DNA of 64,000 nucleotides from Ornatilinea sp. GTDB taxonomy: Bacteria > Chloroflexota > Anaerolineae > Anaerolineales > Anaerolineaceae. The notes under the pieces are model-generated. The model saw only the letters and a list, made by a program, of their open reading frames with translations, made no database searches and was not told where the DNA came from. A program made the translations under genes and the position numbers. The stretch's first letter is position 1; every line of letters begins with the position of its first letter. Below are positions 26,221 through 60,832 of this stretch, piece by piece. The DNA is taken from NCBI GenBank assembly GCA_018433975.1, contig JAHDQE010000067.1:1-64000 (forward strand). The letters are read 5' to 3'.

Positions 26221-27514
26221 TCAATCCGGTTTGATCCATTTCAGTTGAGCACGGTCATTAACCCAATTCAATACAAGGAATGCTTTCTGTTCTTCATCCC
26301 AACCAATAACCGAATCATTCCCATACTCTCTGAACTCGCCTGTTTCCCAATCCCAGATCAGGAAAGAGTATTCTCTGCTCTGTCCCAGAGTATATGAGAG
26401 AATCGCGGTAAAACGCTTGTCAAGGGAGGTCACAGAGGTGGAACCTCCATAATAATATCGATCGCCATATTTATCTGACAAAGATTCTTTCTTTTCTACT
26501 TTCCCGGTAGAAATGTTGTAAATGACATAATTGTCTTGATTTGAACCCGAGTCCACGAGAACCAGCCGTTCATTGTCCTTATCGGTTACACCAATTTTAT
26601 AATTCCCCTGCAAGTCCCCCAGGCAGCGCGGTTTGTCCGGCTCATTTTCATAGAGTGCGATGATTTTCGAATAACCTGCGGATTCATCATCACTATAGAG
26701 GGATATAAATACAACACCATGCTCCGGATAGATCTGCATCACATACCCTTCGGGGAAGGATGCGATATCTTCCTCGCTCAGGGTATATTGATAGCTCTGA
26801 ACCAGTTGTGCATCCATGTCAAACACTTGGATATCGAATATCTTCTTATCACCATATGGGCTGGTGAAGAGGGCAAATTCAGACCCATCCCACAGCCAGC
26901 TCATGTCCATACACTCACTGTGTGTGTTTATTGCGGTGTTCCGGGCAGATTTGACTTGTAAACGGCCGTCGGTTTCCTCCAGAATGTAGAATTGGTCGCG
27001 AAAGCAGCTCTTCTCAGGATTGTAAAGCTTCGGCGCATACAGAAACGCCCGATTGGGAGACCAGGAGAAATCATAGACATAAATATACTCATCTATTGGA
27101 GTCAACTCGTCAAACTGAAAGACCGTAAACGGGAAGGACAGGGATGCGATTGAATAAGTAGTTGCGATGTCAATCACAAACCACTTTCCGTTATGTGATA
27201 ATGCGAAATTGTATTCGTAACCCGCTAGTTGTGGTTTATTGATCCACTGGTCGAACTGGTATTCCCTTGTTCTAAGTATTTGGGAATACTCGTCATTGCT
27301 GGCAAGAGTACCATTTATAATTTCCGGGGTTGTGGTACTTTCCTTTTGAGCAGTTGGCGTTGGGGTCTTCGTTGGAGCCGGGGGTTGCTGTAGGTGAAAT
27401 TTTCACCGGTTGGGTTTCGGTGATTTCAAATGTAGATGTTGGAAGCACCGCTGTCCCATTGCTGCATCCAACAAGCAGTACGACAGCCAGCAGGAAAATA
27501 ATGGTCCTCCGCAT
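26221..27514 (-). pseudogene. Lipoprotein paralogue split by a one-base frameshift
   Basis: The N-terminus (ATG 27514, MRRTIIFLLAVVLLVGC with an LVGC lipobox) and the body (ending at 26221) are in different frames. Comparison with the intact paralogue at 27751-28995 places the break at a run of five G on the plus strand (27380-27384) where the paralogue has four. Removing one base restores a continuous lipoprotein of about 430 residues. The downstream frame is open back to the homologous TPTAQKESTTTPE linker, upstream of any start codon. The body has beta-propeller-like strands (YIYVYDFSWSPN, FLIWDWETGEF). It is either a recent pseudogene, a phase-variable gene or a homopolymer sequencing error. 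Confidence 0.75.
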
Positions 27515-56438: not shown

Positions 56439-57395
56439 TTACGGATTGCAATTCAGCGTGAAAACCGCTTTCGGGAAGTATTGGTGGTTGGGCTCATTCA
56501 CATACAGCCGGATCCAATAATTATTGTAGGTATTTCCCGCTCCGCCAAATTGCCAGGTGGTGCTGACCGTTTTGGTGCCCGCCTCGTCGAACTCCAGTGA
56601 CTTTTCTGCGCTGGACCCGCCATCGCTGCGTTCCCAATGATAAGTAACTTTTCCTTCTCCTGTCACCTTAATGTCCGCCTCAAAAGTAAACTCATGCGGG
56701 CAGGCTCCGGTAAAAGTCTTCTGGTCCACCAGCGTGGTGGCCGAAATTACTGCAAAGATGGGTGAATCAACGACAATTTCCACATAGAAAGACTTATCTG
56801 CCTGAGCGCCAATTCCAAAGACGGCGCCGGAAGCATTGCGCAGCCGCCAGTTGCCGCGGTAGGTATCCGCTTTGGAAGGCGCAGTGAGATTGACCGAAAG
56901 ATCAACGGTTTCCCCCGGCGCGACGGTCTCCGGCATCGACACCGAAACCGGACCGTTCATCGCATTGCCGTCGGAAAAAACCAGTGCATAGCTGGTGGAC
57001 CAGGTACAGGTCCCGTCATTTTTCAAACGCCAGGTCTTTTTAAAATCTTCTCCCGGTTCAAATTCGGTCCCATCCGGCACGGTAACATCGGTTACAAACA
57101 CGGCCTTATCGCAGATTTTTTCACTCGAGGACGAGGGGGTGGATGAGGGTGCGGTGGATTGGGGCGTTTCGGTTGGGGGTGCCTCGGTCGGCGACGCGGC
57201 GGTTTCACCGGCCTCGGGAGTGGCCGACTCTTCACGCTGGTTGGCAAAAGCTTCCACCGTCAGCGCGGCGGCCGTTTGAATCGCGTTGGGCCCTTCCGGT
57301 TGAATGGGCTCTGTCTCTTTACGCGGCAGGTTGCAGGCCGAAAGCGCAAGAAGCATGGTCAGGGCAATCAGGGTGAAAGTAGTGGACTTGTTCAT
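56439..57395 (-). CDS. Lipoprotein with NBR1-type Ig-like (four-tryptophan) domain
   Basis: The 318-residue protein has a signal peptide with LSAC lipobox (Cys21), a Thr/Pro/Ser linker (about 45-92), then an NBR1-Ig-like (FW) domain (about 100-210) with the characteristic KTWRLKNDGTCTW and YRGNWRLRNASG stretches. The last about 100 residues form a second beta-sandwich with two cysteines. The FW domain is a binding module in eukaryotic autophagy receptors and is common in Chloroflexota surface proteins. Start ATG 57395 has GAGGAAGAG upstream. Confidence 0.8.
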   Translation of the reverse strand: MNKSTTFTLIALTMLLALSACNLPRKETEPIQPEGPNAIQTAAALTVEAFANQREESATPEAGETAASPTEAPPTETPQSTAPSSTPSSSSEKICDKAVFVTDVTVPDGTEFEPGEDFKKTWRLKNDGTCTWSTSYALVFSDGNAMNGPVSVSMPETVAPGETVDLSVNLTAPSKADTYRGNWRLRNASGAVFGIGAQADKSFYVEIVVDSPIFAVISATTLVDQKTFTGACPHEFTFEADIKVTGEGKVTYHWERSDGGSSAEKSLEFDEAGTKTVSTTWQFGGAGNTYNNYWIRLYVNEPNHQYFPKAVFTLNCNP

Positions 57396-57994
57396 TATCT
57401 CTCTTCCTCATTCGTGGTTGGAAACCCAATCGATTTTTCTTCATTCTACGTGATATTCAGCAGGGATTCAACTTAAAACACAGCCTGTATTACGGATATA
57501 TTTTAACAGCTTCTATTATAAATCCCGGTTTAATGCTTTGGAGCCATTTATAAAAGACCTGGCTGTCCGGTGCATATTTAAAGTATATACACATCGCAGC
57601 AAAAACTGCCGGGAACAGTAATGTTCAAAGACACAAGAAAATTGTTTTGAGGAGGAAAATCGATTGGGGTATTTAAAGGATTTGGGGAAGGCAAAGTCCT
57701 GGAGGAACTTCTTTTGCCTTCCCCGACCCTAAATTCAAACCACTAAATAAGGAGCCCTAAACTTGTTCACACATGTCTATGTACAAGTACTTTGTCATTA
57801 TAGCAAATTTAAATAAAATGTCAAGAGGTATTCTACAAAAAAAGGGAAGAAAAACCAAAAATGGTTCTCAAAAGCCCCTCCTGCCCGAACCCTGCAGGAT
57901 AAAAAAAACCATTCCAGGTTTGTGACCTGAAAAAACACATGCCAAAATCCCGCTTTCGTCCCAAAGCCGGTCTTCTTTCACGGCAATTCTCTGC
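57396..57994. other. Intergenic region with a ribosome-binding site and long hairpin but no accepted gene
   Basis: About 600 bases hold a GGAGG (57651-57655), a possible 22-codon TTG-started frame (57664), and a perfect 12-base stem (57684-57695 with 57713-57724) with a 17-base loop. An ACTTGT...ACAAGT dyad is at 57761-57788. No protein family was recognised. Confidence 0.4.
57684..57724. other. Perfect 12-base-pair hairpin
   Basis: GGGGAAGGCAAA (57684-57695) and TTTGCCTTCCCC (57713-57724) are exact inverted repeats around a 17-base loop containing a second GGAGG. No T-run follows on either strand, so a terminator is not the obvious reading. Confidence 0.6.
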
Positions 57995-58053: not shown

Positions 58054-58545
58054 ATGGATTTTCTATGGACACCATGGCGGATGGACTATATTATGAGCGA
58101 TAAATCTTCTGCAGGATGCGTATTCTGCAACGCATCCCAACAAGACAACGATAACGAAATGCTGATTGTAGCACGGGGTACCCACAACTTTGTGATTCTG
58201 AACCGCTTCCCTTATAACAGCGGCCATCTGATGATCGTCCCTTACCGCCACCAGTCCTCCCTGGAAGCCCTCAGCCCGGAAACCCGGGTGGAAATGATCG
58301 AAATGGCTTCGCAGGCCGAACACATCCTCAATCAGGTCTACCGTCCCCAGGGCTTCAATATGGGGATCAACCTCGGGAAATCCGCCGGAGCCGGGATCGA
58401 TACGCACATCCACTTTCACATCGTCCCGCGGTGGGAAGGCGACGCCAATTTTATGTCCACCTTAGGACAAACGCGGGTCCTCCCGGAAGAACTTCCCCGG
58501 TCTTACCAGCGGATCAAGGCCGCCTGGGACGGTGCTGAAAAATAG
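58054..58545 (+). CDS. HIT family hydrolase/phosphorylase
   Basis: The 163-residue protein has a zinc-type CVFC (residues 22-25), ILNRFPYNSGHLMIVP and the histidine triad HIHFHIVPR (about 118-126), whose second His is the nucleophile in nucleotidyl transfer. The arrangement with two cysteines resembles bacterial Ap4A phosphorylase/AMP-lysine hydrolase-type HIT proteins. It is rightward, directly left of the DnaA-box cluster, and transcribes towards it. Confidence 0.9.
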   Translation: MDFLWTPWRMDYIMSDKSSAGCVFCNASQQDNDNEMLIVARGTHNFVILNRFPYNSGHLMIVPYRHQSSLEALSPETRVEMIEMASQAEHILNQVYRPQGFNMGINLGKSAGAGIDTHIHFHIVPRWEGDANFMSTLGQTRVLPEELPRSYQRIKAAWDGAEK

Positions 58546-58599
58546 CATGGATAAGCAGATAACCTGCTAAAAAAGTTCTCAAACCATCCCCCACTTTCA

Positions 58600-59190
58600 C
58601 TGTATTTAACGCATTGCGTATATATTTATCCACAGCTTCAACACTTTATCCACAGTTTTTGACACTTTATCCACAGTTTTATTAAAAAACTCTGAAAAAG
58701 TGTCCCATTTCCCGCTTGCGCTGTTCTTTCATTAATTAGAGTCCCGCCCCAACATTCTTTGTAATTTTTAAGATTTTCTCCCAATATTTTTCTTGGCAGA
58801 TTCCGCCTTCCCTTATTACCGGCGGCGCCCTTCTATCCGGAAAACTTCTCAACAGGCCTTGTGGAGAAAACCCCTCTTTTTCCACAGAAACGGGCCGTCT
58901 TATCCACAGATTTGCGGCATTTTATCCCGGCTTCTCCACCATTTCAGGTTCTAAAACAGATTCTCTCCACAGGATTTCCCAAATCTGCGCATTCCTCTCC
59001 ACAAAAAGTCCCCCATTCTCCGAAATTTCTCCACAAAAATTTCCGTGCTTTTCCCAATTTTCTCCACCCTTTCAGAGAGTTTATCCACAGTTTTTGGCGG
59101 GTTATCCACAACTCGTGAAGTCTCGGCTCTACAAAAATTAATCCTGGGGTTCAAGATATTGTGTGCCCGGGAGATGTGGATAAAATTTTC
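58600..59190. other. Candidate chromosomal replication origin (oriC): DnaA-box cluster
   Basis: Seven exact TTATCCACA boxes are present: six forward (58626, 58646, 58667, 58900, 59081, 59102) and one reverse (59175-59183, TGTGGATAA). Several one-mismatch boxes accompany them (58878, 59027; reverse 58860). The first three repeat every 20-21 bases as CACTTTATCCACAG-type units. AT-rich stretches at 58676-58700 and 58735-58800 could be the unwinding element. The region encodes no gene. Chance would yield far less than one exact box. dnaA itself is not in the window, which is unusual but known in some phyla. Confidence 0.82.
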
Positions 59191-59318
59191 TCCGATCTTC
59201 CCGTCCCCTTAATTTCACCTATCGCCGACGAAACCAAACCGGACAACACGCTTCCGATCTCCTGCACCGGAAAACTTTCGACCTCGCCCTGAAAACCTCC
59301 CTTCATCACAAACTTCAC
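59151..59318 (-). CDS. Possible small protein of 51-55 residues beside the origin
   Basis: A leftward frame from GTG 59318 (or ATG 59306 with AGGTGA 8 bases upstream) to the TGA at 59151 encodes MKFVMKGGFQGEVESFPVQE and about 35 more residues with balanced composition. It overlaps the reverse DnaA box, lies beyond the gatB terminator, and matches no family I know. Coding status is doubtful. Confidence 0.25.
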   Translation of the reverse strand: MKFVMKGGFQGEVESFPVQEIGSVLSGLVSSAIGEIKGTGRSEKILSTSPGHTIS

Positions 59319-59347
59319 CTCATGATCCGCGTACCCCTGAATACAAA

Positions 59348-59371
59348 GAGGCCGCCTTTTCAGGCGGCCTC
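59348..59371 (-). terminator. Intrinsic terminator of gatB
   Basis: GAGGCCGCC (59348-59356) and GGCGGCCTC (59363-59371) form a perfect 9-base stem with a 6-base loop; a short T-containing tail follows on the minus strand. It lies 25 bases past the gatB stop. Confidence 0.72.
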
Positions 59372-59395
59372 GATAGAAGCATCTAATGAATAAGG

Positions 59396-60832
59396 TTACT
59401 GTCCCAACAACTCCTCAAGGACCTCACGGGCCAGTTTGGGGGCCGCCTTGCCGCGCATCTTGCGCATCACCTGGCCTACAAACCAGCCGATCAGGCCCTG
59501 TTTGCCGCCGCGGTAGGCTTCCACTTCGCCCGGGTTTTCGGCAATCACTTCCGCGCAGACCGCCCGGATCGCCGAATCGTCACTGACCTGCGCCAGGCCT
59601 TCCGCTTCCACGATCTTTCCGGGGGCGGTTCCGCTCTCCTCCACTTTCTTGAGCAGCTTCTTGGCGGTAGCGTTGTTGATCGTGTTCGCGTCCACCAGCT
59701 TGAGGATTTCCGCCAGGTTTACCGGCGTAAGCTGGAGCTCGTCGGCGGTCTTCCCGCTTTCATTCAGCATCCGCATCACATCATTCATCAGCCAGTTCGA
59801 GACACTTTTAGGATCACCGCCGTAAGCCTGAACAGCAGCTTCAAAGTAATCCGAAAGGCTGCGCTCGCTGGTGAGCACTTCGGCATCATAATCCGGGAGC
59901 TGGTAATCCGTCGTAAAACGCTCGCGGCGGGCCAGCGGAAGTTCCGGAAAACCTGCCAGGATTTCGGCTTTCCAGGCCTCATCCAGATGTACCGGCAGCA
60001 AATCCGGTTCGCGGAAGTAGCGGTAGTCGGCCTCGGTCTCTTTGGAACGCATCTTCCGCAGTTCCCCTTTATCCGCGTCCCAGTCCAATGTCCAGGGCTT
60101 AATCTCGTTGCCCGCTTCAACTTCGCGGATCTGCCGTTCCAACTCTGTTTGCAGCGCGGTGCGCACGGCCTCAATCGAGTTTACGTTTTTGATCTCGGTT
60201 TTGGTGTTGAGCACCTCCGACCCTTTGACACGGATGGAAATATTGCCGTCACACCGCAGATGTCCCTTTTCCATATCCCCTTCAGAGATACCCAGCCAAC
60301 GAATCAACTGGCGCAGCCGGGTCAGGTATTCCGCGGCCTCTTCGGGGGTGCGTAAGTCGGGCCGGGTGACCATTTCAACCAGCGGCACGCCGCACCGGTT
60401 GAAATCGATCAGCCGCCGGGCGCGTTCGTTTTTGGTTTTTCCGGCATCCTCTTCCATGTGCATCTTCTCGATGCCCACCCGGCGGGTGTAACCTTCCGGC
60501 ATCGGCAGGTCTAAATAACCGCCCACGCCGATCGGCTGGTCAAACTGGGTGATCTGGAATCCTTTAGGGAGGTCGGGGTAAAAGTAATTCTTGCGGTCAA
60601 AATGCGATATTTCCCGCACTTCGGAGTGCATGGCCGTGGCCAGCAGGACCGCTTTTTCCACCACATGCCGGTTCAGCACCGGCAGCACGCCGGGCAAACC
60701 GGAACATACCGGGCAGATATTGGTGTTGGGCGGTTCCCCCCACGAGTCCGCTTTGCAGGAACAAAAAATCTTGGTAGTAGTATTGAGCTGGATATGGGTC
60801 TCAAGACCGATTACGGCTTCATATTCTGTCAT
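59396..60832 (-). CDS. gatB: Asp-tRNA(Asn)/Glu-tRNA(Gln) amidotransferase subunit B (GatB)
   Basis: The 478-residue tRNA-dependent amidotransferase kinase subunit converts mischarged Glu-tRNA(Gln) and Asp-tRNA(Asn) together with GatA and GatC. ETHIQLNT at the N-terminus, zinc-type cysteines FCSC and CPVCSG, FDRKNYFYPDLPKGFQITQ, and the C-terminal YqeY-like helical domain with NPGEVEAYRGGKQGLIGWFVGQVM are all present. gatA and gatC are not adjacent. It is transcribed leftward, towards the candidate origin. Confidence 0.95.
   Translation of the reverse strand: MTEYEAVIGLETHIQLNTTTKIFCSCKADSWGEPPNTNICPVCSGLPGVLPVLNRHVVEKAVLLATAMHSEVREISHFDRKNYFYPDLPKGFQITQFDQPIGVGGYLDLPMPEGYTRRVGIEKMHMEEDAGKTKNERARRLIDFNRCGVPLVEMVTRPDLRTPEEAAEYLTRLRQLIRWLGISEGDMEKGHLRCDGNISIRVKGSEVLNTKTEIKNVNSIEAVRTALQTELERQIREVEAGNEIKPWTLDWDADKGELRKMRSKETEADYRYFREPDLLPVHLDEAWKAEILAGFPELPLARRERFTTDYQLPDYDAEVLTSERSLSDYFEAAVQAYGGDPKSVSNWLMNDVMRMLNESGKTADELQLTPVNLAEILKLVDANTINNATAKKLLKKVEESGTAPGKIVEAEGLAQVSDDSAIRAVCAEVIAENPGEVEAYRGGKQGLIGWFVGQVMRKMRGKAAPKLAREVLEELLGQ

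Follow-up and report, generated by a model that had tools for sequence, protein, structure and literature searches.

A phased DnaA-box array, probably lying outside oriC, between a HIT-domain gene and gatB in an Anaerolineaceae genome

The window, the stretch of 64,000 bp analysed here, corresponds to bases 1-64000 of contig C31 (69,897 bp) of a MAG from an uncultured Anaerolineaceae bacterium (Chloroflexota), made up of 130 contigs (5.26 Mb, 97.8% complete, 9.45% contaminated). Within it, an intergenic stretch of 850 bp (58546-59395) separates the ORF of a HIT-domain protein (58054-58545, + strand, Pfam HIT) on the left from that of gatB paralogue A (59396-60832, - strand, Pfam GatB_N and GatB_Yqey) on the right, both of which point toward the intergenic DNA. 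A terminator-like hairpin lies downstream of gatB (59348-59371, - strand), and the start of rpoD is 2.4 kb left of the first DnaA box. HIT, gatB and rpoD are the neighbours given in a first-pass annotation of this DNA, which had also noted that dnaA is absent here; indeed, dnaA is found on contig C17, as a single copy with one exact DnaA box in the surrounding 19 kb. The genomes G011 and G024 have a collinear amidase (gatA)-gatB-HIT block (58-79% identity), and the orthologues of gatB paralogue A in sister genomes are 60-75% identical. Like most sister genomes, this one has two divergent gatB paralogues (~43% identical), the second being located on contig C7 (G000:C7:8091-9530).

The intergenic DNA had been described as a dense cluster of DnaA boxes, six of them in the same orientation and the first three recurring every 20-21 bases, and this description holds. 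Seven exact TTATCCACA boxes lie within 558 bp of gene-free DNA (58626-59183), starting at 58626, 58646, 58667, 58900, 59081 and 59102 on the + strand and at 59175 on the - strand, together with one-mismatch boxes at 58860 (-), 58878 (+) and 59027 (+); the first three exact boxes are spaced by 20 and 21 bp. Over the whole window there are 32 sites with at most one mismatch, compared to 10.2 on average, and never more than 20, in shuffled sequences. Since the genome contains 83 exact TTATCCACA sites in 5.26 Mb, at least seven exact boxes in 558 bp would be expected with P ~1e-18 at the genome's own rate, or ~1e-14 when corrected for all places. It is very likely that this is a real DnaA-binding cluster.

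The boxes are arranged predominantly in one direction, with 12 of the 14 boxes carrying a TCCAC core on the + strand and two on the - strand. The first group is an oriC-type triple, TTATCCACA-N11-TTATCCACA-N12-TTATCCACA (58626-58675, +), which matches the triple of the order with zero mismatches. The second, overlooked in the first-pass annotation, is a longer chain made up of strong and weaker boxes, namely nine co-oriented boxes on the + strand (58878-59110), starting at 58878, 58900, 58932, 58963, 58995, 59027, 59060, 59081 and 59102, of which the last two are strong. Its steps of 22, 32, 31, 32, 32, 33, 21 and 21 bp equal two or three helical turns, and helical phasing is supported both for the 12 co-oriented boxes (R = 0.92, permutation p ~0.0002) and for the nine-box chain (permutation p ~0.0004). 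Within the chain the strongest boxes occupy the downstream end, as they do in the triple. The two boxes on the - strand stand alone, one with a single mismatch (TTCTCCACA, 58860-58868) and one exact (59175-59183). A tandem duplication was considered as the source of the 32-bp steps and rejected, as the 21-bp triple is all that Tandem Repeats Finder detects, and the 32-bp units have little in common outside the box. The most AT-rich 30-bp stretch (58762-58791, 83% A+T) is a possible unwinding element, located at a position that differs from the place used in oriC; the 45 bp upstream of the triple are 62% AT at the window site versus 84% in the genome's own oriC on contig C7.

A DnaA-box cluster is one expected feature of an oriC, and the first-pass annotation had proposed the site as the probable chromosomal origin. 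Cumulative GC skew, computed contig by contig for C31, C7 and a 547-kb contig of the relative G009, does not bear this out. On C31 the skew is negative both before and after 58.6 kb, as far as the end of the contig (69.9 kb), with neither a cumulative minimum nor a strand switch at the cluster. The leftward orientation of the genes to the left, taken in the annotation as the sign of a left replichore, is real, but it persists on the right-hand side of the cluster and so indicates no replichore switch there. As the skew keeps one sign and genes run leftward on either side, the replication fork seems to pass through the site from the right.

The features expected of this chromosome's oriC are found at a separate locus, on contig C7. 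Five exact boxes and several weaker ones, in both orientations, are present at C7:27070-27483, beside the cumulative skew minimum of this contig at 26944, and a triple at 27434 is preceded, 64 bp upstream, by the palindrome CCCCCTATATATAGGGGG. The gene order, dNK1-oriC-nucleotidyltransferase-like-dNK2, is common to ~18 sister genomes, the name of the nucleotidyltransferase-like gene being given from sequence alone, with no Pfam match. In G009, the skew minimum of the 547-kb contig (211570) is 0.4 kb from a triple starting at 211952 in the same dNK/nucleotidyltransferase locus. When up to three mismatches were allowed, 72 of 101 genomes in the order contained the TTATCCACA-N11-TTATCCACA-N12-TTATCCACA triple, mostly as one copy each, and none contained the reversed control. 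The CCCCC-ATATAT-GGGGG form of the palindrome is found near 19 of the 38 triples examined, including that on C7, usually 52-64 bp upstream. The oriC of the Anaerolineaceae is thereby located, apart from dnaA and marked by a box triple and a palindrome that are conserved; here it lies among two deoxynucleoside kinase genes and the nucleotidyltransferase-like gene (G000:C7:25947-29438), with dnaA relocated. The first-pass annotation had itself named a skew minimum elsewhere and comparable clusters elsewhere in the genome as observations that would speak against its proposal, and C7 provides both, in a context conserved among sister genomes as to genes, triple and palindrome. Based on skew, gene context and this better candidate, we rejected the window site as the main chromosomal origin, a role that is very unlikely from the sequence features.

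Several observations concern these oriC loci more generally. The palindrome at L005:9371-9387 corresponds to G000:C7 near 27370, and we know of no described protein for the CCCCC-ATATAT-GGGGG palindrome of Anaerolineales oriC loci. In G027, which belongs to another family, dnaA adjoins the nucleotidyltransferase-like gene and has box clusters on both sides, and one relative has four oriC-type triples in 2.3 kb (G074:C25:40488-42715). The only parS pair in our genome is on contig C93, so parS, considered as an origin marker, is neutral between C7 and C31.

Given the origin signature on C7 and the one-signed skew of C31, the window site is best viewed as an extra DnaA array, and with the true replication origin on another contig it is most likely a DnaA control or sponge site. 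We consider it probable that this is an array located outside oriC that binds DnaA and, by holding it, limits initiation. DnaA would nucleate on the strong boxes and then spread cooperatively along the weaker phased ones, and an array of this size could hold many DnaA molecules. Replication of the array would double this capacity, leaving less free DnaA for oriC and delaying the next initiation, a model which follows the proposals made for the DnaA-box clusters (DBCs) of B. subtilis and for E. coli datA. The array may act by titration alone or, in addition, by ATP hydrolysis or nucleotide exchange. Box orientation and helical spacing matter for DnaA oligomers (PMC4285127; PMC10316083), and the one-way, phased boxes of the window, compared to boxes in both directions in the C7 oriC, count toward an array. 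Counting against it are the perfect oriC-type triple and the 83% AT stretch, which are origin-like traits, and the lack of conservation at this place: a conserved HIT-gatB array was considered and rejected, since no cluster was found at the HIT and gatB loci examined in relatives, nor at the gatB loci of named genomes.

DnaA control sites located beyond oriC have been investigated in depth in E. coli and B. subtilis; the open-access literature searched yielded no description of one for the Chloroflexota. As in these two species, the DnaA boxes of the window site are densely packed in non-coding DNA that is not part of oriC, and the site is most likely, from its sequence, a DnaA-box array of this type, real and well above chance. 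B. subtilis has six DBCs outside oriC, whose joint deletion leads to early initiation (PMC5295017), and they are oriC-proximal according to the title of Okumura et al. 2012, cited therein; the arrays of relatives of our genome are also near oriC. Unlike the six DBCs, a single such array was found in this genome, with 12 one-way boxes in strict two- or three-turn phasing, in a different phylum and with a function predicted from sequence. Like E. coli datA, the window site is a non-coding locus of at most ~1 kb that is rich in DnaA boxes and lies away from oriC; datA itself contains five boxes and depends on IHF (PMC5295017). Compared to the order-wide oriC (dNK1-oriC-nucleotidyltransferase), the window has the same 20+21-bp TTATCCACA triple, but it lacks the palindrome, the skew minimum and the dNK/nucleotidyltransferase neighbours, and its boxes run one way instead of in both directions.

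Further phased arrays are present in five relatives (G009, G011, G012, G019 and G042), 18-34 kb from oriC. The nearest relative, G011, has a second array (C6:42229-42867) of 17 co-oriented boxes in ~21-bp steps, 23 kb from its oriC, which is like the window array in its many co-oriented boxes and its convergent genes outside oriC; its gene context is different, including a holA-like ORF, and no shared spacer sequence was found. This adjoining ORF (DNA polymerase III delta subunit, G011:C6:42892-43920) is named from sequence only. The distances from the array to the genome's own oriC are ~29 kb in G009, 18 and 23 kb in G012, 21 kb in G019 and 34 kb in G042. In G009, G012 and G019, which consist of few contigs each, the phased-triple search revealed no array farther than 34 kb from oriC, and the chance of a random array position falling within 34 kb is estimated at roughly 2% each. 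The surrounding genes are convergent in the window, G009 and G011 and divergent in G019, G012b and G051. In ~1.6 Mb scanned, chains of at least three phased boxes were found nowhere except in oriC-type clusters or these extra arrays; much of this DNA had been picked for box pairs, but most of G009:C9, C31, C7 and 13 further stretches of our genome had not. The window array and the C7 oriC are on different contigs and, from the contig coordinates, at least 38.7 kb apart; no join of C31 to C7 by synteny was found among the available contigs.

Mis-binning would explain the two loci differently, C31 then coming from another Anaerolineaceae species with its oriC between HIT and gatB. The contamination rating of the MAG (9.45%) leaves room for this, and C31 has a slightly higher G+C and a tetranucleotide profile toward the edge of the bin (r 0.88-0.94). 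However, other contigs of the bin deviate equally, and the tetranucleotide profiles are compatible with C31 inside or outside the bin and do not discriminate. Furthermore, rpoD, HIT and gatB paralogue A are single-copy in the bin and all on C31, so a foreign C31 would leave the host without all three. G011 is the best relative for rpoD and HIT of C31 and for dnaA of C17 alike, and even inside C31 the skew does not switch at the cluster; together these points make this explanation unlikely.

The site could also be what remains of a former origin, or one half of an ancestral multi-part origin that has become detached. Several relatives do have two or three oriC-like triples inside ~34 kb, and the two clusters that flank dnaA in G027 are ~2 kb apart. 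However, the nine-box chain is still in helical phase, which suggests current selection over decay, and the array locus varies among relatives with no common ancestral position seen; hence a relic seems improbable.

The perfect 20+21 triple, with a layout identical to that of the order's oriC triple, the 83% AT stretch and an identity of ~81% over 59 bp with the genome's own C7 triple region could be read as signs of another chromosomal origin, a working one or a backup, for example an oriC module that was duplicated, came to lie between HIT and gatB, and fires sometimes. Against this are the constant sign of the skew around the site, the leftward genes on both of its sides and the non-conserved locus, although an origin that is rarely used or recently acquired would be expected to leave little skew. 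The CCCCC-ATATAT-GGGGG palindrome of the C7 oriC was not found at the window triple, but it is missing at several genuine oriCs as well and is therefore a weak test of origin status. Altogether, a second origin here is decidedly unlikely, and we strongly doubt that there are two DnaA-dependent origins on the chromosome, the conserved dNK/nucleotidyltransferase one and a recently acquired HIT-gatB one, with the latter firing at least under some conditions. Finally, DnaA is also known as a transcription factor (PMC8203912) and some extra arrays of relatives (G019, G012b, G051) lie between divergent ORFs, but control of a neighbouring gene by DnaA is highly improbable here, since the two neighbours, HIT and gatB, are directed into the array, which is downstream of both and follows a terminator-like hairpin after gatB, their orthologues elsewhere lack boxes, and no promoter-like excess fitting the regulation of HIT or gatB was found at the array.

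Modelling indicates that titration alone prevents premature re-initiation at fast growth only with titration sites near the origin, and E. coli is without such origin-near sites (PMC9640692). As several Anaerolineaceae seem to carry origin-near arrays, cultured members of this family could serve for testing the titration idea.

To the left of the HIT-domain gene, a perfect 12/12 match to a sigma-70-type promoter, with a TG before the -10 element, is present on the - strand (57797-57824), upstream of a lipoprotein-like gene (56439-57395) with an N_BRCA1_IG domain.
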